A stretch of 64,000 nucleotides of DNA from NCBI GenBank assembly GCA_001899205.1, contig MKVL01000038.1, positions 249,938 through 313,937 of the forward strand, written 5' to 3'. A program made the translations under genes and the position numbers. Positions 23,597-36,731 of the stretch are shown piece after piece. Below the pieces are notes generated by a model, which saw only the letters and a program-made list of their open reading frames with translations, was not told where the DNA came from and searched no databases. The DNA is from Mesorhizobium sp. 65-26. GTDB lineage: Bacteria; Pseudomonadota; Alphaproteobacteria; Rhizobiales; Rhizobiaceae. Each line of letters opens with the position of its first letter. Position 1 is the stretch's first letter.

Positions 23597-24982
23597 TCAG
23601 CGGGTCAGCGCGTCGAGGATGCGCGCCCAGGACCGCTGGCCCTTGTGGAACGAGCTCATCTCGTACTTCTCGTTGGGCGAATGGATGCGGTCGTCGTCCA
23701 GCCCGAAGCCGACCAGCAGCGACTCCATGCCGAGATAGGTCTGGAAATCGCCGACCACCGGTATCGAGCCACCGCTGCCCGTGGTCACGGCCTGCTTCGG
23801 CCACTCGTCGGACAACGCGTCCTTGGCCTTGGCGAGAAACGGCGAGTCGTAGGAAAGCTGGATCGCCGGCGAGCCGCCATGCGGGTGGAACTCGACCGAA
23901 CAGTCGCGCGGAATGCGCTCCTCGACGAATTTGCGGAACGCGGCGCGGATCTTCTTCGGATCCTGCTTGTGGACGAGGCGGAACGAGACCTTGGCTGAGG
24001 CCTCGGCCGCGATCACCGTCTTGAAGCCCTTGCCGGTGTAACCGCCTATGATGCCGTTGAACTCGGCCGTCGGCCGCGCCCAGGTCAGCTCCAGGACGGT
24101 GCGGCCCTTCTCGCCCGAGGGGATCGACAGGCCGACCGGTCCGAGGAACGTTTCGGCGGTCTCGCCGAGCGTTTCCCACGACTTCAGCACCTGCGACGGT
24201 GTCTCCTCGACGCCGTCATAGAAGCCGGGGATGGTCACATGGCCGTCCTTGTCATGGATGTCTGCCAGAACCCGCGCCAGGATGCGGATCGGATTGGCGG
24301 CAGCGCCGCCGTAAAGGCCGGAGTGCAGGTCGCGGTCGGCGGCCTTCACGGTGATCTCCTCGCCCACCAGCCCGCGCAGCGTCACGCAGATCGAAGGCGT
24401 ATCGCGGTTCCACATGCTCGTGTCGCACACCAGCGCGAAATCGGCCTTCAGCTCCTCGGCATTCGCCTCGAGGAACGGCTTCAGCGACGGCGAGCCGGAT
24501 TCCTCCTCGCCCTCGAACAGGATGGTGATCCGGCACGGCATGTTGCCATGAACCTGCTTCCAGGCGCGGCAGGCCTCGACGAAGGTCATCAACTGCCCCT
24601 TGTCGTCGGCGGAGCCACGCCCGGTGATCACCTTGCGGCCGGGTTCGATTTCCTTGACCGACGGCGCGAACGGATCGTTGTCCCAAAGCTCGATCGGATC
24701 GACCGGCTGGACGTCGTAGTGGCCGTAGAAAAGCACGTGCGGCGAGCCCGCCGGGCCTTCGTGATGCGCAACCACCATCGGATGACCGGGCGTGTCGCGC
24801 ACGCTGGCATCGAAGCCTATTAGCCTGAGCTCGGCGACCAGCCATTCCGCCGCCTTGCGGCAGTCAGCGGCATAGGCGGGATCGGTGGAGATCGACTTGA
24901 TCGCCAGCAGGCCGAACAGGCGCTCGAGGCTCTGGTCGAGATTCTTGTCGAGGCGATCGAGAACGGGGGAAATTGCGGACAT
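23597..24982 (-). CDS. M20-family metallo-dipeptidase
   Basis: Di-zinc peptidase of 461 residues, M20 family (CNDP/DapE-like). Metal ligands are visible in LFYGHYDVQPVD (His, with the catalytic Asp two residues on), GSADDKGQ (bridging Asp), EGEEESGS (general-base Glu and ligand Glu), CDTSMW (Asp), and a C-terminal His in DRIHSPNE. The dimerisation (lid) domain occupies about 200-360. Likely a cytoplasmic broad-range dipeptidase. Confidence 0.9.
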   Translation of the reverse strand: MSAISPVLDRLDKNLDQSLERLFGLLAIKSISTDPAYAADCRKAAEWLVAELRLIGFDASVRDTPGHPMVVAHHEGPAGSPHVLFYGHYDVQPVDPIELWDNDPFAPSVKEIEPGRKVITGRGSADDKGQLMTFVEACRAWKQVHGNMPCRITILFEGEEESGSPSLKPFLEANAEELKADFALVCDTSMWNRDTPSICVTLRGLVGEEITVKAADRDLHSGLYGGAAANPIRILARVLADIHDKDGHVTIPGFYDGVEETPSQVLKSWETLGETAETFLGPVGLSIPSGEKGRTVLELTWARPTAEFNGIIGGYTGKGFKTVIAAEASAKVSFRLVHKQDPKKIRAAFRKFVEERIPRDCSVEFHPHGGSPAIQLSYDSPFLAKAKDALSDEWPKQAVTTGSGGSIPVVGDFQTYLGMESLLVGFGLDDDRIHSPNEKYEMSSFHKGQRSWARILDALTR

Positions 24983-25003
24983 GTCTTTGAGGCCTTTCGA
25001 TTG

Positions 25004-25104
25004 AGAGCATGATCCGCGACCGCGAAATATCGGTCTTCCGCCGGATCGCGCCCACGCAAGAACATGGAGCGCGATGACGATTCGGGAAATGTATCACGCT
25101 CCAT
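25004..25104. repeat. Degenerate GAGCATGATCC-type repeats upstream of the dipeptidase
   Basis: AGAGCATGATCCGCGA (from 25005) with a CGGATCGCGCC counterpart, followed by a second palindrome with perfect arms ATGGAGCG (25064-25071) and CGCTCCAT (25097-25104). Both look like decayed members of the rhizobial repeat seen cleanly at 57014-57056. Confidence 0.5.
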
Positions 25105-25179
25105 TTGCGGGAACCGTAGCGGCAGCGCGCGGAAACGGAAAGCCGTGAGCGTTGGACCAAGGCGGGAAAGGCTGAGGGC

Positions 25180-25327
25180 AAAAAAATGCCGCCGTGGTGG
25201 AGGGGGAACCACGGCGGCCTTTTACTCGAAACGATGCGGCAGCCCGGAGAGGGGGGATAGGCTGCCGCAGTTGTCCGGTATAGGCGGGGGACGGGCCTTG
25301 CTCCGGACTTCGGCGAAAACTGCCGAT
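25180..25327 (-). ncRNA. Candidate trans-acting small RNA, three C-rich-loop hairpins (alpha-r14-like)
   Basis: On the minus strand three hairpins follow one another. The first is GTCCGG/CCGGAC (25303-25308, 25273-25278), with GUCCCCCGCC in the loop. The second is a perfect 9-bp GCGGCAGCC/GGCTGCCGC stem (25260-25268, 25236-25244), with a UAUCCCCCCUCUCCG loop. The third is a perfect 11-bp GCCGCCGTGGT/ACCACGGCGGC stem (25208-25218, 25188-25198), with a UCCCCCUCC loop, directly followed by seven U. This is the layout of rhizobial alpha-r14 RNAs such as NfeR1, whose loops pair with Shine-Dalgarno sequences. Length about 148 nt. Family membership is inferred, not searched. The rest of the gap 24983-25481 holds only repeats. 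Confidence 0.6.
25188..25218 (-). terminator. Rho-independent terminator of the small RNA
   Basis: Perfect 11-bp stem (25188-25198 with 25208-25218), 9-nt loop, and seven U at 25186-25180 on the minus-strand transcript. A shorter T-run (25220-25223) on the plus strand could make it weakly bidirectional. Confidence 0.8.
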
Positions 25328-25333
25328 GACGTG

Positions 25334-25362
25334 TATTTGTGTCTGGGAACGTGGCGATTCAA
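25334..25362 (-). promoter_or_regulatory. Candidate promoter of the small RNA
   Basis: On the minus strand TTGAAT (25357-25362) and CAAATA (25334-25339) are separated by 17 bp. The -35 is good and the -10 weak. It lies about 120 bp past the end of the ABC ATPase gene, so the RNA would be independently transcribed. Confidence 0.35.
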
Positions 25363-25481
25363 GGGCACGAAAATTACACTTTTGTAACATAGGCGTGAGT
25401 GTGCCGATCGCGCGGGCCTGAAGTCCCGCGAACGCCGTGGAAAACCTGGAAATTGGCCCCGTTAGAGCCGCGTCTGAGGGC

Positions 25482-26567
<1,086 letters not shown>

Positions 26568-26577
26568 GGGTTCTTCC

Positions 26578-27401
26578 TTACTTGACGGCGCCTTCGGTCA
26601 GGCCGGAGACGAACCAACGGCCGATGAAGGCAAAGAGGGCGACGACGGGGACGATGGCGGCGGTCGCGCCGGCCAGCAGCAGGCCCCAGTCGATCTGGTA
26701 CTGGCCGATGATGCCGGCAAAGCCGACAGGAATGGTGCGCCGCGCGTCAGACACGATCAGCACGGAGGCGAAGAGATATTCGGTCCAGGACGAGATGAAG
26801 GCGAAGATCGCGACGCTGGCGATGCCCGGCGCGATCAGCGGCATCAGGATGCGCAGGAGGATGGTTGTCGTCGGGGCGCCGTCGACGACCGCCGCCTCCT
26901 CGATCTCGCGCGGAACGGTGGCGAGGAAGGAGCGCATCATCCAGATCGAAAAAGGCAGTGCCAGAGCCACGTTGACGATGACCAGCGCCACGGGGCTGTC
27001 GATCAGCCCGACCTTGGCGAACAGCCCGTAGAGCGGGATCAGCACCACCACGCCGGGAAACGCATAGGCGAGCAATATCGTGCGGTAGAGCGTGTTGCGG
27101 CCTGGAAATTCCATGCGGAAGAAAGCATAGGCGGCCGGCAGTGCCAGGAGCACGGTGAAGGCCGTCGAAAACACCGCCACGATGACGCTGTTGAGCAGAT
27201 AGACGGGAAAGTCGGACGCCTGCAGCAGCTTCTCGAAATGCTGCAGCGTGAAGGAGTGCGGGATCATCGTCGGTTCGCGCTGGATGATCTCGCGCGGCAG
27301 CTTGATGGAGCCCGTCACCACCCACCAGAACGGAAGCCCGATGATGAGCGCGAGAGCGGCGAGACCGCCATAGAGCGCGCTTGCCTGACGCCAGCTTCGT
27401 T

Positions 27402-27405
<4 letters not shown>
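26578..27405 (-). CDS. Carbohydrate ABC transporter permease (MalG-like)
   Basis: Inner-membrane permease of 275 residues with six hydrophobic helices. The EAA loop that docks on the ATPase is [26 protein letters not shown]. The ATG at 27405 (MKRSWRQAS) overlaps the upstream permease stop by 4 bp. Partner of the 27402-28274 permease in a CUT1 heterodimer. Confidence 0.92.
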
Positions 27406-28274
<869 letters not shown>

Positions 28275-28293
28275 GCGTCTGCCCTGCCCGTTG

Positions 28294-29580
28294 TTACTTC
28301 TTGGCGATCTCGGACATCTTCGCCTCGCCCGCCTTGACGGCGTCGGCCGCGCTCTGGCCATCGACGACGATGTGCTGGAGCGTCTCGGCGATCACGTTCT
28401 GCGCCGAGATTGCGCCGATCGACGGGAACACCTTGCCGGTGGTGAAGCCGAACAGCTTGCCGTTCTGCGAGTTGGCGATCATCGTCTCGATCTGCGGCTT
28501 GTACTTGGTCACGACCTTGTCGTTCCAGAACGAGTCCGCCTTGGCGCCGTCATTGGTGACCGGCAGGAACAGGCCCGGCTCCATGGTCAGGAAGCGGCCG
28601 TAGTTGGCCGGCTCGAGAAGCCAGGCCAGGAACACCTTGGCGGCATCCTGCTTGGCCTTGTCCTTGGTGGTGAGCATGATGGCGTTGGAGTAGGAAATCG
28701 TCGCCGACTCCTTCTCGCCATCCTCATGCGGGACCGCGGCGACGCCGAGGTCGGCGGCATCGCCCTCGGCCTGCGTGTCATAGGTGTTGATGACGCTGAA
28801 CTGCAGGATCATGCCGCAGGTGTTGCTGGCGAAGCAGGCTTCCGCCTCGCCCCAGGTCCAGGACGCGTTGTCGGCTGGCGAGAGCTTGGCCAGCTTGCTG
28901 TAGAAGTCGTAGGCCTTCACCGTCCCGGGCTTGTCGAAGTCGATCGAGCCGTCATCCTTGTAGATGTCGGCGGCGCCGCTGTTGACCATGAAGCCGTAGA
29001 CCGTCTGGTCCGTGTAGAGCTGCTTGTTGGCCGGCAGGCCAATGCCGTAGCGGCCGTCGCCGCCCAGCTTCTCGGCGGCCGCCTGCCATTCGCTCCAGGT
29101 CTTCGGCACTTCGATGCCGGCCTTCTTCAGGGCGCTGTTGCGGTACCACAGCGAGATCGCCATGTTGTAGGCCGGAACCGCCCAGACATGGTCGTCATAC
29201 TTGTAGGGCGCGATCGTTGCCGGCACGAAACCGTGCTTGGCGTCGAGGTCCTTGGCCAGGTCGTCCACCGGCACGACGGCGTCGATCTTCCTCAGCACGG
29301 TGGTGAAATCGGGAATGGTGAACAGCAGGTCCGGGCCGTTGCCGGCGGCGAAGGCGGCCGGCGCCTTGGCGTAGACCTCGCCCCAGCTCTGCGGTTCCTG
29401 GCGCACCTGGATATCGGGATGGGCCTTGTTGAACTCGTCAAGCAGTTCCTGCATGCGCTGCACCCGGTGCGGCGGCTGCTCCATATGCCAGAGCGTGAGC
29501 TTGACCGGATCGGCGTGGGCCGTACCCGAAAGAAGCAGCGCGGCGAACCCGGCTGCGGTGAAAAGTCTGGTAGGCTTCAT
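28294..29580 (-). CDS. Sugar ABC transporter periplasmic binding protein (family 1)
   Basis: A 428-residue extracellular solute-binding protein. A signal peptide of about 23 residues (ends GTAHA-DP) leads into VKLTLWHMEQPPHRVQ, typical of the CUT1 group. The length suits a di- or oligosaccharide, glycoside or amino-sugar ligand; specificity is not readable. It lies between the SIS gene upstream and the permeases downstream. Confidence 0.9.
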   Translation of the reverse strand: MKPTRLFTAAGFAALLLSGTAHADPVKLTLWHMEQPPHRVQRMQELLDEFNKAHPDIQVRQEPQSWGEVYAKAPAAFAAGNGPDLLFTIPDFTTVLRKIDAVVPVDDLAKDLDAKHGFVPATIAPYKYDDHVWAVPAYNMAISLWYRNSALKKAGIEVPKTWSEWQAAAEKLGGDGRYGIGLPANKQLYTDQTVYGFMVNSGAADIYKDDGSIDFDKPGTVKAYDFYSKLAKLSPADNASWTWGEAEACFASNTCGMILQFSVINTYDTQAEGDAADLGVAAVPHEDGEKESATISYSNAIMLTTKDKAKQDAAKVFLAWLLEPANYGRFLTMEPGLFLPVTNDGAKADSFWNDKVVTKYKPQIETMIANSQNGKLFGFTTGKVFPSIGAISAQNVIAETLQHIVVDGQSAADAVKAGEAKMSEIAKK

Positions 29581-29616
29581 GCTGTTCTCCCTTTTGCGGC
29601 CCCCTGGCCGGCTTCC

Positions 29617-30354
29617 CTAAAGATGGCGGTTGCGCTTGCGATAGCGGGCGATGAGCCCTTCGTTGACTTCCTTGGCGCCGGGCATGTTGGCGCTGAGATA
29701 GACCGGAGCGTCGGTGCCCGAGGCCTGCAGGCGCACGGCGGCCTCGGCGAAGATGGCGTTCATCAGCGCCGCGCCGATCGAGGTCGATATCGGGCCGACG
29801 CGCAGTTCGCTGCCGGGCACCTTCATGATCGCGTCGCCGGGAGGCGCGCCATTGTCGAGCACGATGTCGGCCACGTCGGCGAGCCGGGTGCGGCCGTGCG
29901 CGGCCTGGCGCGAATACTCCTGCGAGGTGATGGCGATGACGGTGGCGCCGCGCTGCTTGCCGAGCTGCGCCGCCTCGACCGTGGCCGCGTTGACACCGCT
30001 GTTGGAGACGACGATCAGCACGTCGTTGGCGTCCATCGGATAGTGCTCGAACACCGGCACGATCACGCCCGACATGCGCTCGAAGGCGGTGCTCGCCACC
30101 GCGCCTTCGTGCACCATCAGCGGCGTGGACAGGATCGGCACGGTGAGCGCGAGGCCGCCGGCCCGGTAGTGGGCCTCCTCGGCCATGGTATGGCTGTGGC
30201 CGGTGCCGAAGATGTAGACCAGCCCGTCGGCCCGCGCCGTGCGCTCCACCGCATCCGCGGAGGCCGCGATCGCCTCGGCATTGTCTTCGATCAGCCGGCC
30301 GATGCGGGTGGTCAGTTCCGCCAGGTAGGCGGCGGCTGTGGGTGTCTTGCTCAT
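29617..30354 (-). CDS. SIS-domain sugar-phosphate protein (UPF0309-like)
   Basis: A 245-residue SIS (sugar isomerase) domain protein. The phosphosugar loop is GTGHSHTMAEE, followed by VVSNSGVNAATVE and ITSQEYSRQ. UPF0309 members are uncharacterised; relatives include MurNAc-6-P etherases and fructosamine deglycases, so it may isomerise, deaminate or cleave a phosphorylated amino sugar (inference). The ATG at 30354 overlaps the GntR stop by 4 bp, giving tight co-translation with its regulator. Confidence 0.82.
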   Translation of the reverse strand: MSKTPTAAAYLAELTTRIGRLIEDNAEAIAASADAVERTARADGLVYIFGTGHSHTMAEEAHYRAGGLALTVPILSTPLMVHEGAVASTAFERMSGVIVPVFEHYPMDANDVLIVVSNSGVNAATVEAAQLGKQRGATVIAITSQEYSRQAAHGRTRLADVADIVLDNGAPPGDAIMKVPGSELRVGPISTSIGAALMNAIFAEAAVRLQASGTDAPVYLSANMPGAKEVNEGLIARYRKRNRHL

Positions 30355-31088
30355 GCGTCCTTTCCAAGTGTCAGATTGGCCCGCATGACAAAGCAATCGC
30401 CGCGATAGATCGAGCGGACATATTCGAGCGGGCGTCGCGTCGCGTCGAGCGTGCGGCGGGTCAGGATCAGAACCGGGCTCTGCAGCGATATGCCCAGCGC
30501 CGCCGCGCTTGCAGCGTCGGGGTGAGCGGACCGAAGCCCCTGTTCCGCGAATGTCGGATAGAGGTGGTAGATGTCGCGCAGGACGCGGTAGAGCGATGCC
30601 GTGCGGAAGTCGGCGCGGTCGAACAGGCCGGGCGCCAGCTCCAGCGGTATCTCCGTCTTTTCGATCCCGACGGGCTCGCTGTCCGCCATGCGCACCCGCA
30701 CCAGCCTGTGCACGGCGGCGCCCTCCGCCAGGCCGAGCGCGTCGGCGGTCTCGCGGTCGGCGACGCCGATGCCGGCGTCCAGGACGATGCTGGAAGCAGT
30801 ACGGCCGCCGCGCTGCATGTCCTCGGTGAAGCCGGTCAGCGTGCTGAGCTGCTGCTCGATCTGCAACTGCGCGACGAAGGCGCCGCGCCCGACGCGCGTC
30901 TCCACCAGCCCCCGCTTTTCCAGCAGCTTCAGCGCCTGCCGCGCCGTCATGCGACTGGCGCCCAGCTCCTCAGCCATCTGGCGTTCCGAGGGCAGCCGCT
31001 CGCCGGCCTTCAGCGCGCCGGATGTGATCTGCGCCGTGAAGTCGTTGGCGATGCGCTGGTAGAGAGGCTGACCGGCCGTGTTGTTCAT
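30351..31088 (-). CDS. GntR/HutC-family regulator (UTRA domain) of the SIS-ABC operon
   Basis: A 245-residue repressor: N-terminal winged helix (about 8-70, LPSERQMAEELGASRMTARQALKLLE, recognition helix SRMTARQ), then a UTRA ligand domain (about 90-240). It is the first gene of the operon GntR-SIS-binding protein-permeases-ATPase. Two TGGTAT-type palindromes lie immediately upstream, pointing to autoregulation. The effector is presumably a sugar phosphate handled by the SIS protein. Confidence 0.9.
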   Translation of the reverse strand: MNNTAGQPLYQRIANDFTAQITSGALKAGERLPSERQMAEELGASRMTARQALKLLEKRGLVETRVGRGAFVAQLQIEQQLSTLTGFTEDMQRGGRTASSIVLDAGIGVADRETADALGLAEGAAVHRLVRVRMADSEPVGIEKTEIPLELAPGLFDRADFRTASLYRVLRDIYHLYPTFAEQGLRSAHPDAASAAALGISLQSPVLILTRRTLDATRRPLEYVRSIYRGDCFVMRANLTLGKDA

Positions 31089-31092
31089 CAGA

Positions 31093-31126
31093 TGGTATAT
31101 ACCTTAGCTACTCGTGGTATGTACCA
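31093..31126 (-). promoter_or_regulatory. Paired GntR operators
   Basis: TGGTATATACCT (31093-31104) and TGGTATGTACCA (31115-31126) have centres 22 bp apart, two helical turns. They lie 5-38 bp before the GntR start and look like HutC-type operators for the adjacent regulator. Confidence 0.65.
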
Positions 31127-31149
31127 TGTGTCCCGGAGCTGTAAAGCGG

Positions 31150-32643
31150 CTATCGGGCCAATATTTTGTCGCGATGCCTGCGGTAGGCGGCAAAGGCCTG
31201 GTCCCATTGCGGCGCGAGCGCGGCGTCCGGCTCGTGCCGGCGCTGGATGGCGCGGGTCGACACGGAAGCCTCGCGGATCGAGCCGAAACGGCCGATGGCG
31301 GTTGCCGCCAGCAGCGCCGCGCCGCGCGCGCCGAATTCCGTTCCCTCCGGAACCAGCACCGTGGCGCCAAGCGCGTCGGCCACCATCTGCGTCCACATCG
31401 GGCTGCGGGCGCCTCCGCCGGTAAGCAGGATCTCCCGGCTCCCGCCGTCGAGTTCGCGGTAAAGGTCGCGCAAGGCCAGCACCACGCCCTCGTAGACGGC
31501 GCGGACCATGTGCGGCCGGCCATGGCGTGGCGTCAGCCCATGGAAGCCGGCGCGCGCCTCGACATCGACCACGGGGGCGATGATGCCGCTTTCGCTGAGA
31601 TAGGGCAGATAGGTGACGCCCTCGCTGCCGATGGGCAGCGGCGCGATCATGGCCTCGATCCGCTGGTAGAGATCCGGCTTCGACGCAAGGTCGGGCAGCA
31701 GCGTCTCGACCGCCCAGTCGAGATTGAGCGTGCCGGCGACATTGACCATGGCCCTGTACCAGCGCTCGCCGGGCATGGTGAAAAGCAGCCCGAGGTCTGG
31801 CGGAGTGAAAACCGGCCGGTCGTGCACCACGCCGATCATGCAGGTGGTGCCCAGCACCGCCATCGCCGCCCCGGTCTCCAGCGCGCTGGCCCCGGTGACC
31901 GTGCAGGGCACGTCGCCCGCCCCGATGGCCACCGGCGTGCCGGCCAGCAGGCCCGTCGCTTCCGCCGCCTCCGGCGTAATCGTTCCGCCTATGGATTCGG
32001 ATTCGGCGACAGCCGGCAGCTTGCCGGCGAGGTCCGAGACGCCGAACAAATCCAGCATCTCCTGGCTGCGGTCCCGCAAGAGCGCGCTGCCCGGCGCGAC
32101 CGCGGCTTCCGTGCGGTCGGCGGCGACCCTGCCCGTCAGCCTCAGCCTGAGGAAATCCTTGTAGCACAGCACATGGGCCGCCCGCCCCAGCACGTCGGGC
32201 TCATGCGCCTTCAGCCACATCAGCAGCGGCAAGGTGCAGCCCTGCTGCAGCACGCATCCATCGGAAAGGAAGATGCGATGGTAGAAGTCGGGGATTTCGG
32301 CGGCCCGTGCCTCCAACATCTCCTGCGCGCGGCTGTCCTCCCAGACGATGCCAGGGCGAAGCGCATTGCCCGCTTCGTCGGAAAGCCATGCGCCGACCAT
32401 GGCGGCCGAAAGGCCGACGGCGGCGATGTCCCGGCCCGTCACGCCGGCATCCTGCATCGCCGCGCGGATGGCGAACACCATCGCATCCCAGGCGGAATCA
32501 GGGTCGATTTCCGACCATCCCGGATTTGGCCGTTGCAGCCGGATCCGGTGCATGCCGGCGCCGAGCTGGCGGCCCCGGTCGTCGAATATGGCGGCCTTGG
32601 TGATAGAAGATCCGGCGTCGATGCCAAGCAGGTAGCGGCTCAT
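31150..32643 (-). CDS. FGGY-family carbohydrate kinase
   Basis: Sugar kinase of 497 residues (xylulokinase/gluconokinase fold). N-terminal phosphate loop YLLGIDAGSSITKAAIFD, catalytic-region VWEDSRAQEM, second-domain GAGDVPCTVTGA, and C-terminal LTGGGARSPMWTQMVAD. The substrate is unassigned. The ATG at 32643 follows the upstream GntR gene by 75 bp, so these two form one transcript. The adjacent SIS/ABC operon probably supplies the sugar. Confidence 0.88.
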   Translation of the reverse strand: MSRYLLGIDAGSSITKAAIFDDRGRQLGAGMHRIRLQRPNPGWSEIDPDSAWDAMVFAIRAAMQDAGVTGRDIAAVGLSAAMVGAWLSDEAGNALRPGIVWEDSRAQEMLEARAAEIPDFYHRIFLSDGCVLQQGCTLPLLMWLKAHEPDVLGRAAHVLCYKDFLRLRLTGRVAADRTEAAVAPGSALLRDRSQEMLDLFGVSDLAGKLPAVAESESIGGTITPEAAEATGLLAGTPVAIGAGDVPCTVTGASALETGAAMAVLGTTCMIGVVHDRPVFTPPDLGLLFTMPGERWYRAMVNVAGTLNLDWAVETLLPDLASKPDLYQRIEAMIAPLPIGSEGVTYLPYLSESGIIAPVVDVEARAGFHGLTPRHGRPHMVRAVYEGVVLALRDLYRELDGGSREILLTGGGARSPMWTQMVADALGATVLVPEGTEFGARGAALLAATAIGRFGSIREASVSTRAIQRRHEPDAALAPQWDQAFAAYRRHRDKILAR

Positions 32644-32718
32644 CGCGCAATTCCTACGCAGGTTTGCGCAAGGGACAGGCAAGCCCGGCCGGGCTTCGAC
32701 GGTTCGGGTGATGTCATG

Positions 32719-33474
32719 CTATGCTCCGAGACCGAGCTCGGCCACGAAGTCGTAGGCGTCGCCGCGGAAGATGGAATGGCTGAATTCCACGATGCGGCCG
32801 TCCTGCAGCCGGGTCGTGCGGTGAATGTCGAGCGCCGCCGAACCGGCAGGAACCTGCAACAGGCGCGCGTTCTCGGCATCGACATTGATGGCGGTGAAGT
32901 GCTGGGTGGCGCTGACGGGACTATGTCCCAGGGCTCGCAGCGTCTCGTAGAGCGACGCGCCGACCTGTCCGGGATCGGCAAGCATGTTTGCCGGCGAAAG
33001 CGACCACTCCACGGCAATCGGTTCGTCATCGGCCAATCGTAGTCGCCGCAGGCGCACAACGGGATCGCCCTCGATCAGGCCCAGCAGCGCCGCCTCGCCC
33101 GCGTCGGCGAGGCCCCGCTCCCGCGACAGCCACTGCGTACCGGCCCGGCGCCCCCGCGCCGTCATGTCCTCGGTGAAGGAATAGAGCCGGCTGAGGCTCT
33201 GCGCATAGCGCTTGGGCTGGCGCGAGACGTAGTTGCCGCTGCCGTGCCGTTGCTCGACAAGTCCCTTGGCGACCAGTTCGGCCAGCGCCTTGCGCACAGT
33301 GACGCGCGAAATCCCGAGCGCGGCGGCCATGTCGCGTTCCGAAGGCAGCGCCGCATCGGGCAGCAACTCCCCGGTGCCGATGGCCTCGGCCACCAGTAGG
33401 TAGAGTCGCCGATAGGCGGGCGCGGGATCGCCCGTATCGAAACGCCGGGGGTCGAATATGTCCAGGGGAGCCAC
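32719..33474 (-). CDS. GntR/HutC-family regulator (UTRA domain) of the FGGY kinase
   Basis: A 251-residue regulator with GTG start at 33474. The winged helix is at about 15-85 (LPSERDMAAALGISRVTVRKALAELV), and the UTRA domain at about 105-245. The promoter region carries two TGGTATT repeats separated by 4 bp, the form of a NagQ box, which suggests amino-sugar control. It lies directly before the FGGY kinase. Confidence 0.88.
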   Translation of the reverse strand: MAPLDIFDPRRFDTGDPAPAYRRLYLLVAEAIGTGELLPDAALPSERDMAAALGISRVTVRKALAELVAKGLVEQRHGSGNYVSRQPKRYAQSLSRLYSFTEDMTARGRRAGTQWLSRERGLADAGEAALLGLIEGDPVVRLRRLRLADDEPIAVEWSLSPANMLADPGQVGASLYETLRALGHSPVSATQHFTAINVDAENARLLQVPAGSAALDIHRTTRLQDGRIVEFSHSIFRGDAYDFVAELGLGA

Positions 33475-33492
33475 CTTCGAGGCCTGAAGAGC

Positions 33493-33510
33493 AATACCAA
33501 ACTAATACCA
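33493..33510 (-). promoter_or_regulatory. NagQ-like operator: two TGGTATT repeats, 4-bp spacer
   Basis: Plus-strand AATACCA at 33493-33499 and 33504-33510 are separated by AACT. On the minus strand this reads TGGTATT-AGTT-TGGTATT, matching the NagQ box described in Xanthomonas (two TGGTATT separated by 4 bases). It is 19 bp upstream of the GntR start. I see nothing else definite in the gap 33475-33779. Confidence 0.6.
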
Positions 33511-33779
33511 ATTGGAACGCGACCGCAACCCTTGGCACGCGGCTCGCGCGACATTGGCATACAGTATCCACGACATATCGAAGGATGGCGCCCGCGACGT
33601 ATTTCCCGGTTATCCCAGGCAGGCTTCGGAAAACTGTCCCGGGCTTTCCCGGCAAAACCCGTGGATACAGCATTCGTCCGCCGAGGCGCCCGCCAGGAAT
33701 GTCAGGGGCTTGCCGTAGTCAGCGGAAACGGGCGCCTTTGCCATGGACCGCGAAGCGCCGCCGCGCTATCCCTGCCGGC

Positions 33780-36731
33780 ATGAAAAAAGGCGATCATCTC
33801 TTCCTTGTCGACGGTTCCGGCTACATCTTCCGCGCCTATCACGCGCTGCCGCCGCTCACGCGAAAATCCGACGGGCTGCCGGTGGGCGCCGTCTCCGGCT
33901 TCTGCAACATGCTTTGGAAGCTGATGAAGGATGCCCGCAACACTGATGTCGGCGTCGTGCCGACGCATTTCGCGGTCATCTTCGACTATTCCTCGAAAAC
34001 CTTCCGCAACGACCTCTACCCCGAATACAAGGCCAACCGCTCGGCGCCGCCGGAGGACCTGATTCCACAGTTCGGCCTGATCCGGCAGGCGACCAGGGCC
34101 TTCAACCTGCCCTGCATCGAAATGGAAGGCTTCGAGGCCGACGACCTGATCGCCACCTATTGCCGCCTGGCCCGCGAAGCCGGCGCCGACGCCACCATCG
34201 TTTCCTCCGACAAGGACCTGATGCAGCTGGTCGGTGAATCCATCGGCATGTACGACCCGATGAAGGATCGCCAGATCGGCATTCCCGAAGTGATCGAGAA
34301 GTGGGGCGTACCGCCGGAGAAGATGGTCGAACTGCAGGCGCTGACAGGCGATTCCGTCGACAACGTGCCCGGTGTGCCGGGGATCGGGCCGAAGACCGCC
34401 GCGCAACTGCTGGAGCAGTTCGGCGACCTCGACGGGCTTCTGGCGCGCGCCGGCGAGATCAAGCAGGAAAAGCGGCGGGAATCGATCATCGCCAATGCCG
34501 ACAAGGCGCGCATCTCGCGCGAGCTGGTGACACTCAAGAACGACGTGCCGGTGGCCGAAGGCCTGGACGAGCTCGTGCTGCAGGCGCCGGACGGTCCAAA
34601 GCTGATCGGCTTCCTCAAGACCATGGAATTCTCCTCGCTGACGCGGCGCGTCGCCGAGACCACCGGCACCGAGGCCGGCGATGTCCAGGCCGTCGCCGTG
34701 ACCATAGAGCGCGCCGATGCTGCGCATGGTCCCGATGTCGGTGCGGGCGCGCCCCGGGCGGCGGAGGCCGCATCGGCAGAGACGACGCCGGCGGCTGATG
34801 CCGCGGACGGTCCCGCCAAGGCGGGCGACACGCCCTCCCTGCTTTCGGCAATCCGCCTCGAGGCAGCCGCCTCGCGCAAGATCGACCCGTCCGCCTACCA
34901 GATCGTCCGCGACGCGGCCGGGCTGAAGGCCTGGGTGGCCGAGGCGCTGGAAGCCGGCATTGCCGCCTTTGACGTCCAGGCAACCTCGGGCGACCCGATG
35001 CTGGCCGAGCCGATCGGCTTTTCGCTGGCGACGGCGCCCGGGCGTGCCGCCTACGTGCCGCTGACCCATCGCAGCGGCAGCGGCGACCTGCTCGGCGGCG
35101 GAACCGTCGAGAACCAGATCCCGATCCGCGAGGCGCTGGCCTTGCTGAAGCCGCTGCTCGAGGACGCCTCGGTTCTCAAGGTCGGGCATAATGTGAAATA
35201 CGCGCTTGTGGTCATGAGCCGGCACGGGATCGAGATTTCGTCCCACGACGACACGATGCTGATCTCCTACGTGCTCGACGCCGGCACGTCGGGCGGGCAC
35301 GACCTCGACGCGCTGGCCGACAAGTGGCTCGGCCATGCGCTGACGCCGCTGAAGGATCTTGCCGGCTCCGGCAAGTCCGCCATCGGCTTCGACCAGGTCG
35401 AGATCGACAAGGCAGCCGCCTTTGTCGGCCAGAAGACCGATGTGACGCTTCGGCTGTGGCGCGTGCTGAAGCCGAGGCTGGCCGCCAAGGGCCTTGTCTC
35501 GGTCTACGAGCGGCTCGAAAGGCCGCTGGTGCCGGTACTGGCGCGGATGGAACAGCGCGGCATCTCGGTGGACCGCCAGATCCTGTCGCGACTTTCGGGC
35601 GAGCTGGCGCAGGGCGCCGCACGCCTCGAGGAGGAAATCTACCAGCTCGTCGGCGAGCGCATCAACATCGGCTCGCCCAAGCAGCTCGGCGACATATTGT
35701 TCGGCAAGATGGGCCTGCCCGGCGGCACCAAGACCAAGACCGGGCAATGGTCGACCACGGCCCAGCTCCTGGAGGATCTGGCCGCCGAAGGCCATGAACT
35801 GCCGCGCAAGATCGTCGACTGGCGCCAGCTCACCAAGCTGAAGTCGACCTATACCGACGCCCTTCCCGGCTTCATCAATCCAGACACAAAGCGCGTCCAC
35901 ACCTCCTACGCGCTCGCCTCGACGACGACCGGGCGCCTGTCGTCCTCCGACCCCAATTTGCAGAACATCCCGGTGCGTACCGCCGAGGGCCGCAAGATCA
36001 GGACGGCCTTCATCGCCGAGAAGGGCCACAAGCTGGTCTCGGCCGACTACAGCCAGATCGAGCTGCGCGTTCTCGCTCATGTCGCGGAAATCCCACAACT
36101 GCGCCAGGCCTTCGCCGACGGCGCCGACATCCATGCCATCACCGCCTCGGAGATGTTCAACGTGCCGGTCGAGGGCATGCCATCCGAAATCCGTCGCCGC
36201 GCCAAGGCGATCAATTTCGGCATCATCTACGGCATCTCGGCCTTCGGCCTTGCCAACCAGCTCTCCATTCCGCGCGAAGAGGCGGGCAACTACATCAAGA
36301 AATATTTCGAGCGCTTTCCCGGCATTCGCGACTACATCGAGGAAACCAAGGCCTATGCCCGCGAGCACGGTTTCGTCGAGACCATCTTCGGGCGGCGCAT
36401 CCACTATCCGGAAATCCGTTCCTCCAACCCCTCGATCCGCGCCTTCAACGAACGCGCGTCGATCAACGCCCGGCTGCAGGGCACCGCGGCCGACATCATC
36501 CGCCGCGCCATGGTGCGCATCGAGGAGGCGCTAGACACGGCGAAGCTGTCGGCGCGCATGCTGCTGCAGGTGCATGACGAACTGATCTTCGAGACAGTCG
36601 AGGCGGAAGTCGCCGCGACGATTCCCGTGGTGCGGAAAGTGATGGAGAACGCCGCCATGCCGGCGGTGGCCATGTCCGTGCCGCTGCATGTCGACGCGCG
36701 CGCCGCCGACAATTGGGACGAGGCCCACTGA
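33780..36731 (+). CDS. polA: DNA polymerase I, with degenerate proofreading site
   Basis: Repair and Okazaki-fragment polymerase, 983 residues. The 5' nuclease (about 1-300) has intact acidic motifs (EADDLIATY, SSDKDLMQL, TGDSVDNVPG). The polymerase domain (about 580-983) has motif A SADYSQIELR, motif B RRRAKAINFGIIYG and motif C QVHDELIFE. In the middle 3'-5' exonuclease domain the E. coli catalytic set D355, E357, D424, D501 aligns with D398, Q400, A475 and K552, so proofreading is probably lost. The ATG at 33780 (MKKGDHLFLVDGSG) is the family start; the 65 residues upstream are not PolA-like. Confidence 0.95.
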   Translation: MKKGDHLFLVDGSGYIFRAYHALPPLTRKSDGLPVGAVSGFCNMLWKLMKDARNTDVGVVPTHFAVIFDYSSKTFRNDLYPEYKANRSAPPEDLIPQFGLIRQATRAFNLPCIEMEGFEADDLIATYCRLAREAGADATIVSSDKDLMQLVGESIGMYDPMKDRQIGIPEVIEKWGVPPEKMVELQALTGDSVDNVPGVPGIGPKTAAQLLEQFGDLDGLLARAGEIKQEKRRESIIANADKARISRELVTLKNDVPVAEGLDELVLQAPDGPKLIGFLKTMEFSSLTRRVAETTGTEAGDVQAVAVTIERADAAHGPDVGAGAPRAAEAASAETTPAADAADGPAKAGDTPSLLSAIRLEAAASRKIDPSAYQIVRDAAGLKAWVAEALEAGIAAFDVQATSGDPMLAEPIGFSLATAPGRAAYVPLTHRSGSGDLLGGGTVENQIPIREALALLKPLLEDASVLKVGHNVKYALVVMSRHGIEISSHDDTMLISYVLDAGTSGGHDLDALADKWLGHALTPLKDLAGSGKSAIGFDQVEIDKAAAFVGQKTDVTLRLWRVLKPRLAAKGLVSVYERLERPLVPVLARMEQRGISVDRQILSRLSGELAQGAARLEEEIYQLVGERINIGSPKQLGDILFGKMGLPGGTKTKTGQWSTTAQLLEDLAAEGHELPRKIVDWRQLTKLKSTYTDALPGFINPDTKRVHTSYALASTTTGRLSSSDPNLQNIPVRTAEGRKIRTAFIAEKGHKLVSADYSQIELRVLAHVAEIPQLRQAFADGADIHAITASEMFNVPVEGMPSEIRRRAKAINFGIIYGISAFGLANQLSIPREEAGNYIKKYFERFPGIRDYIEETKAYAREHGFVETIFGRRIHYPEIRSSNPSIRAFNERASINARLQGTAADIIRRAMVRIEEALDTAKLSARMLLQVHDELIFETVEAEVAATIPVVRKVMENAAMPAVAMSVPLHVDARAADNWDEAH

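Follow-up and report, generated by a model that had tools for sequence, protein, structure and literature searches.

The window analysed here, i.e., the whole stretch of 64,000 nt from Mesorhizobium sp. 65-26, carries on its minus strand a series of hairpins with C-rich loops, and this raises the questions of which small RNA is encoded there, whether it is a gene of its own, and how it would act. We have folded the minus strand from 25330 to 25180 and obtained a free energy of -67.2 kcal/mol (z = -6.2), while none of 200 shuffled sequences is as low. The fold consists of four hairpins, a weak one at the 5' end and three strong ones. Together with the covariance-model match described below, the following features are defined.

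25183..25328, minus strand: αr7 sRNA gene (full RF02342 model); the transcript probably covers ~25330-25180, its ends being placed by analogy with SmrC7 of 148-150 nt (PMC2780559)
25310..25326, minus strand: weak 5' hairpin of 5 bp, from the fold; variable in relatives, with 67.7% of cells paired
25273..25308, minus strand: hairpin 1, with 6 outer and 4 inner pairs and the loop CCGUCCCCC, from fold and alignment
25235..25269, minus strand: hairpin 2, of 11 bp, with the loop AUCCCCCCUCUCC, from fold and alignment
25180..25218, minus strand: hairpin 3, the intrinsic terminator, of 11 bp, with the loop UCCCCCUCC, from the fold

The observation from which the original prediction started, namely hairpins with C-rich loops, a run of U and promoter-like hexamers, is confirmed. 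Its three stem-loops of 6, 9, and 11 bp need some correction, since the hairpins are present but number four when the 5-bp one at the 5' end is counted, the middle stem has 11 bp instead of 9, and hairpin 1 is composed of 6 outer and 4 inner pairs. The C-rich loops are present in the fold, and the end with seven U is borne out as well (25186-25180), with one A between the 11-bp terminator stem and the U-run.

For the identity of the RNA, we have scanned the whole window against Rfam with cmscan. The αr7 model (RF02342) matches the minus strand at 25183-25328 with 120.8 bits (E 3.5e-23; cut-off 60 bits) and over model positions 1-145 of 145, and this is the sole match above a curated cut-off in all 64 kb. 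In the published description of αr7, the two middle hairpins have strongly conserved loops and covarying stems, and a terminator hairpin forms the 3' end (PMC3927594); all of this is found at this locus. We therefore regard it as virtually certain that the locus is the Mesorhizobium copy of αr7, which is known in S. meliloti as SmrC7, SmelC023 or sra03 (names equated by a table in PMC2873474). It resembles the S. meliloti αr7 in the full-length model match, the hairpins, the conserved loops, the terminator, the divergent orientation of polA, and the single copy above cut-off, and differs from it in a block of ~8.3 kb with sugar-uptake genes that lies between αr7 and polA in this genome. The family is already catalogued in nitrogen-fixing rhizobia, and in this respect the locus is an ordinary one. 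In a covariance-model search of this genome, one αr7 copy is above the cut-off. Four further matches of 15.7-19.9 bits are below it and were treated as chance, because below-cut-off matches also appear in 8 of 14 control genomes in the same search.

The assignment proposed originally, to the αr14 family (RF02344; NfeR1/SmrC14, SmelA075, also called 'cuckoo' RNA), has a similar design in its favour. Like αr7, αr14 is a series of hairpins whose C-rich loops might pair with ribosome-binding sites, a rise in nodules is reported as common to SmrC7 and SmrC14 (PMC2780559), and the αr14 model does run over its whole length at this locus. However, in a scan with a permissive threshold it gives only 43.6 bits against a cut-off of 58.8, while αr7 scores 120.8 at the same place. 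In addition, αr14 is defined by three hairpins that each expose the same CCUCCUCCC as unpaired sequence (PMC10746234, PMC3927594), and for NfeR1, which has six copies in S. meliloti, this motif is reported in each loop (PMC7143759). Neither the window RNA nor any of the 60 sequences aligned with it contains the motif (0/61). That is, αr14 repeats one motif per loop, whereas αr7 has three different loops without CCUCCUCCC and occurs here in one copy; three αr14 genes above the cut-off sit at other loci of this genome. With the covariance score and the missing loop motif, membership in αr14 is ruled out for practical purposes, and we give this reading hardly any probability. Two other models with C-rich hairpin loops are even farther from the locus, i.e., 6C RNA (RF01066) with 28.3 bits against a cut-off of 47 and CcsR1 (RF02791) with 24 against 65.3.

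As to the αr14 genes themselves, the three of this genome (L006, L007, and L008) are of the NfeR1 type, carry CCUCCUCCC in their loops, and are detected by Rfam as well. L006 is located at a contig end, and its first loop reads CCUCCUCCC followed by C, while the first loop of L007 reads CUUCCUCCC, which differs from CCUCCUCCC by a base.

Covariation among Mesorhizobium homologues had been named as a check of the prediction. We have aligned the window with 60 loci from 59 genera (one genus occurs twice), giving 61 distinct sequences, by MAFFT without structure; the loci are taken from those listed above the cut-off in the family search, and 37 genomes with below-cut-off matches were left out. 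When the window's own fold is imposed, 93.3% of 2219 cells pair, and both partners have changed in 29 of 37 pairs. The covariation score over the 61 sequences is 0.369, compared with 0.188 in shuffles, and none of 500 shuffles reaches it; at every slide of 1-3 columns it drops to 0.12 or less. Since the shuffles ignore relatedness and the structure is taken from one of the aligned sequences, we have given most weight to the double changes. The stems thus covary strongly. In hairpins 1-3, 93-98% of the helix cells are paired, and RNAalifold, which was given no structure, recovers the same three hairpins with double changes in 25 of 31 pairs. The low pairing of the 5' hairpin may perhaps come in part from misalignment; the 5' domain of αr7 is described as highly variable (PMC3927594).

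The stems vary (the middle stem reads GCGGCAGCC or GGACAAAGGCC, for example) while the loops barely change across the 61 sequences, a contrast that is favoured by choosing the alignment rows by model score. In hairpin 1, the stretch GUCCCCCG, which comprises the loop and one stem base, is invariant (61/61). Hairpin 2 shows changes on both sides in 9 of its 11 pairs, and its loop stretch CCCCUCUCC is kept in 59 of the 61 sequences. For hairpin 3, double changes are seen in 10 of 11 pairs. In 56 of the 61 sequences, the final 45 nt contain the motif CCUCC, and in the window RNA its only perfect occurrence is in the terminator loop.

We have further analysed the region upstream of the RNA, for which the original prediction had claimed a promoter of its own. 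Hexamers resembling -35 and -10 boxes are indeed found there, in a region that is conserved in relatives.

25329..25399, minus strand: conserved promoter region; homology to nine same-genus polA-αr7 intergenic regions ends at 25398-25410
25387-25374, minus strand: TTAC-N6-GTAA dyad, from the alignment
25363-25358, minus strand: CTTGAA of the -35 box CCCTTGAA, conserved in relatives
25339-25335, minus strand: CAAAT -10 region, with a conserved spacer between -35 and -10, from the alignment

Counting the window together with 96 loci, 97 upstream regions were compared. Of these, 95 could be aligned on the -35 box and show the consensus CCCTTGAAtcGCCAc-TTC with a CA-aT -10 region, although part of the box is already demanded by the anchor pattern, to which two loci did not conform. 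An unanchored count over 100 nt upstream gives CTTGAA in 89/97 and CTTGAC in 0/97. The dyad is likewise present in 89 of the 97 regions, against none for a control dyad. One 16-nt form of it (GTTACRAANNTGTAAY), the form that was searched in this genome, occurs at the αr7 promoter only. Compared with the published σH1 consensus CTTGAA-N15-16-CCTATAT (PMC4843759), the αr7 -35 box fits and the -10 region fits poorly. For SmelC023, RpoD and RpoH1/2 are listed in a review table (PMC7143759); for the SmrC7 promoter, the founding paper predicted σ70 alone (PMC2780559), and a mapping study cautions that promoters of these two types overlap (PMC3616915).

The genomic neighbourhood bears on whether the RNA is an independent gene.

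23597..24982, minus strand: M20-family dipeptidase, the downstream neighbour (Pfam PF01546, NCBIfam NF006579)
25400..33688, no strand assigned: block of ~8.3 kb between αr7 and polA (flank alignments; Pfam gene names)
33585..36731, plus strand: polA (DNA polymerase I) ORF (TIGR00593, 920 bits, and Pfam; model match 33798-36728)

We have compared 96 relative loci from 94 distinct genomes (two occur twice), 60 of them with 3-kb flanks (one cut at a contig end) and 36 with ~1.5 kb or less. A divergent polA match lies upstream of αr7 in 89 of the 96, and in 75 of these 89 it is at most 300 bp away, as measured to the aligned piece; an M20 dipeptidase match follows downstream in 80 of the 96. The same arrangement is reported in S. 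meliloti, where C7 is flanked by polA/SMc02851 in the orientation '< >' (PMC2780559). A position beside polA is described as the usual microsynteny of αr7, with RNA12 of A. tumefaciens C58 as an exception (PMC3927594, section 2.3), so polA adjacency should be taken as a usual and not a required feature of the family.

In the window, polA keeps its usual orientation but is ~8.5 kb from αr7 and not adjacent to it. The block in between encodes a MalK-like ATPase, two permeases, a binding protein, a SIS isomerase, two GntR/UTRA regulators, and one ORF without a Pfam match. It is missing between polA and αr7 in 8 of the 9 same-genus loci compared, whose 700 nt upstream of αr7 align to the window in two pieces, with the polA side reaching 33689-33736 and the sRNA side 25398-25410; in the ninth (L019), the sRNA-side piece alone aligns. 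Since the short polA-αr7 arrangement is common in the family, we infer that the block arrived by insertion. At its junctions, a search of 25000-34000 found no repeats of 20 nt or longer; the four families of direct repeats and the single inverted pair detected there all lie elsewhere. At this αr7 locus, ~70 nt upstream of the RNA stayed intact though polA is no longer adjacent. Three other loci of the same genus (L031, L046, and L047) show no polA match within ~1.5 kb upstream of αr7, and their M20 match starts ~1 kb downstream; other rearrangements at the αr7 site are possible in them.

Another reading is that the structure only forms the 3' UTR or the terminator of the sugar ABC operon, which it had been said to follow. 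The placement holds for the window, where αr7 comes after the MalK-like gene and shares its strand, but it is not general, because most relatives have the divergent polA upstream of the RNA and not this operon. Besides, a conserved promoter region belongs to the RNA itself, and the 5' ends of the S. meliloti homologue were mapped by TAP-based RACE (PMC2780559). The operon reading is rejected by synteny, and we consider it highly improbable. Overall, the evidence is best explained, in all likelihood, by a copy of αr7 with its own promoter region and terminator, whose loops would pair with mRNAs in trans.

The distribution of αr7 was followed in three samples of genomes. In a sample of relatives, αr7 was detected in 36 of 61 genomes, the query included, i.e., in 36 of 37 from the same genus and in none of 24 from other families; the single same-genus genome without a match is 86% complete. 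An order-wide sample yielded 12 of 297 genomes, all 12 from the same family, under strict filtering, which misses weak matches. Within the family, 207 of 247 genomes have a match at E 0.01, and 170 of them are above the cut-off. The relatives, order-wide, and family searches gave no αr7 matches in the 14 control genomes. The statement in PMC5596092 that Smr7C has 'not been discovered' in M. huakuii 7653R sits oddly with the presence of αr7 in nearly all same-genus genomes of our sample.

For the S. meliloti founder SmrC7, a primary transcript of 148-150 nt and a processed form of 106 nt are reported, and its level is ~13-fold higher in nodules than in free-living cells (PMC2780559). A search for this RNA by the primer printed in PMC5928592 returned no match. 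By length alone, the corresponding processing site in the window would fall at ~25285, just 3' of loop 1. Thus αr7 is widely conserved in this bacterial family and its founder is strongly raised in nodules, yet no reported target of αr7/SmrC7 was found among the matches listed, which come chiefly from freely readable literature.

As for the mechanism, the C-rich loops may act in trans and without Hfq, by pairing with the G-rich ribosome-binding regions of mRNAs, and such pairing would lower the translation of these mRNAs. SmrC7 was not detected in Hfq co-immunoprecipitates, which its authors ascribe to absence of binding or very low affinity (PMC2848018), and NfeR1 is called Hfq-independent (PMC10746234). 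We have counted the loop complements located 3-12 nt before ATG in this genome, using the reversed pattern as control. The complement of loop 1, in a pattern that includes two stem bases, occurs 23 times against 8, and that of loop 3 16 times against 2, compared with 39 against 7 for part of the αr14 motif; these counts are small, and with the reversed control, targeting by the sRNA cannot be told apart from ordinary Shine-Dalgarno sequence. For loop 2, the strict complement shows no enrichment ahead of ATG (10 against 10), and only three of the ten ATGs concerned start a reading frame of 100 aa or longer; mRNA targets of loop 2 are accordingly not claimed. Judged from sequence, loop 3 looks like an ordinary anti-Shine-Dalgarno sequence, considering its excess before ATG. 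The likeness is weak for loop 1, and loop 2 shows none in the strict test. We infer that pairing with ribosome-binding sites is the likeliest mechanism, with roughly an even chance of being correct.

The main rival is that the loops bind an RNA-binding protein, the RNA serving as a sponge or as a protein-guided regulator, while pairing with mRNAs would be of secondary importance. Neither of the two loops with the best conservation is the canonical anti-Shine-Dalgarno CCUCC, one of them is loop 2 with its lack of complement enrichment, SmrC7 was not seen with Hfq, and conservation of the loops would fit protein binding too. On the other hand, there are more complements of loops 1 and 3 before ATG than in the control, CCUCC is retained by loop 3 in most relatives, and no protein partner of αr7 was met in the accessible literature searched, so that we consider protein binding rather unlikely. 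It is similarly doubtful, though conceivable, that αr7 is a stress-responsive and Hfq-independent regulator, as the σH1-like CTTGAA and the dyad might suggest, in which the two loops conserved throughout the family would serve for specific recognition of a protein or a few mRNAs and not as generic anti-Shine-Dalgarno sequences. Pairing to ribosome-binding sites is still the preferred mechanism. The alignment shows which bases are constrained, i.e., those of the two loops, the dyad, and the -35 box, and in this way directly guides the choice of mutants in loops and promoter.
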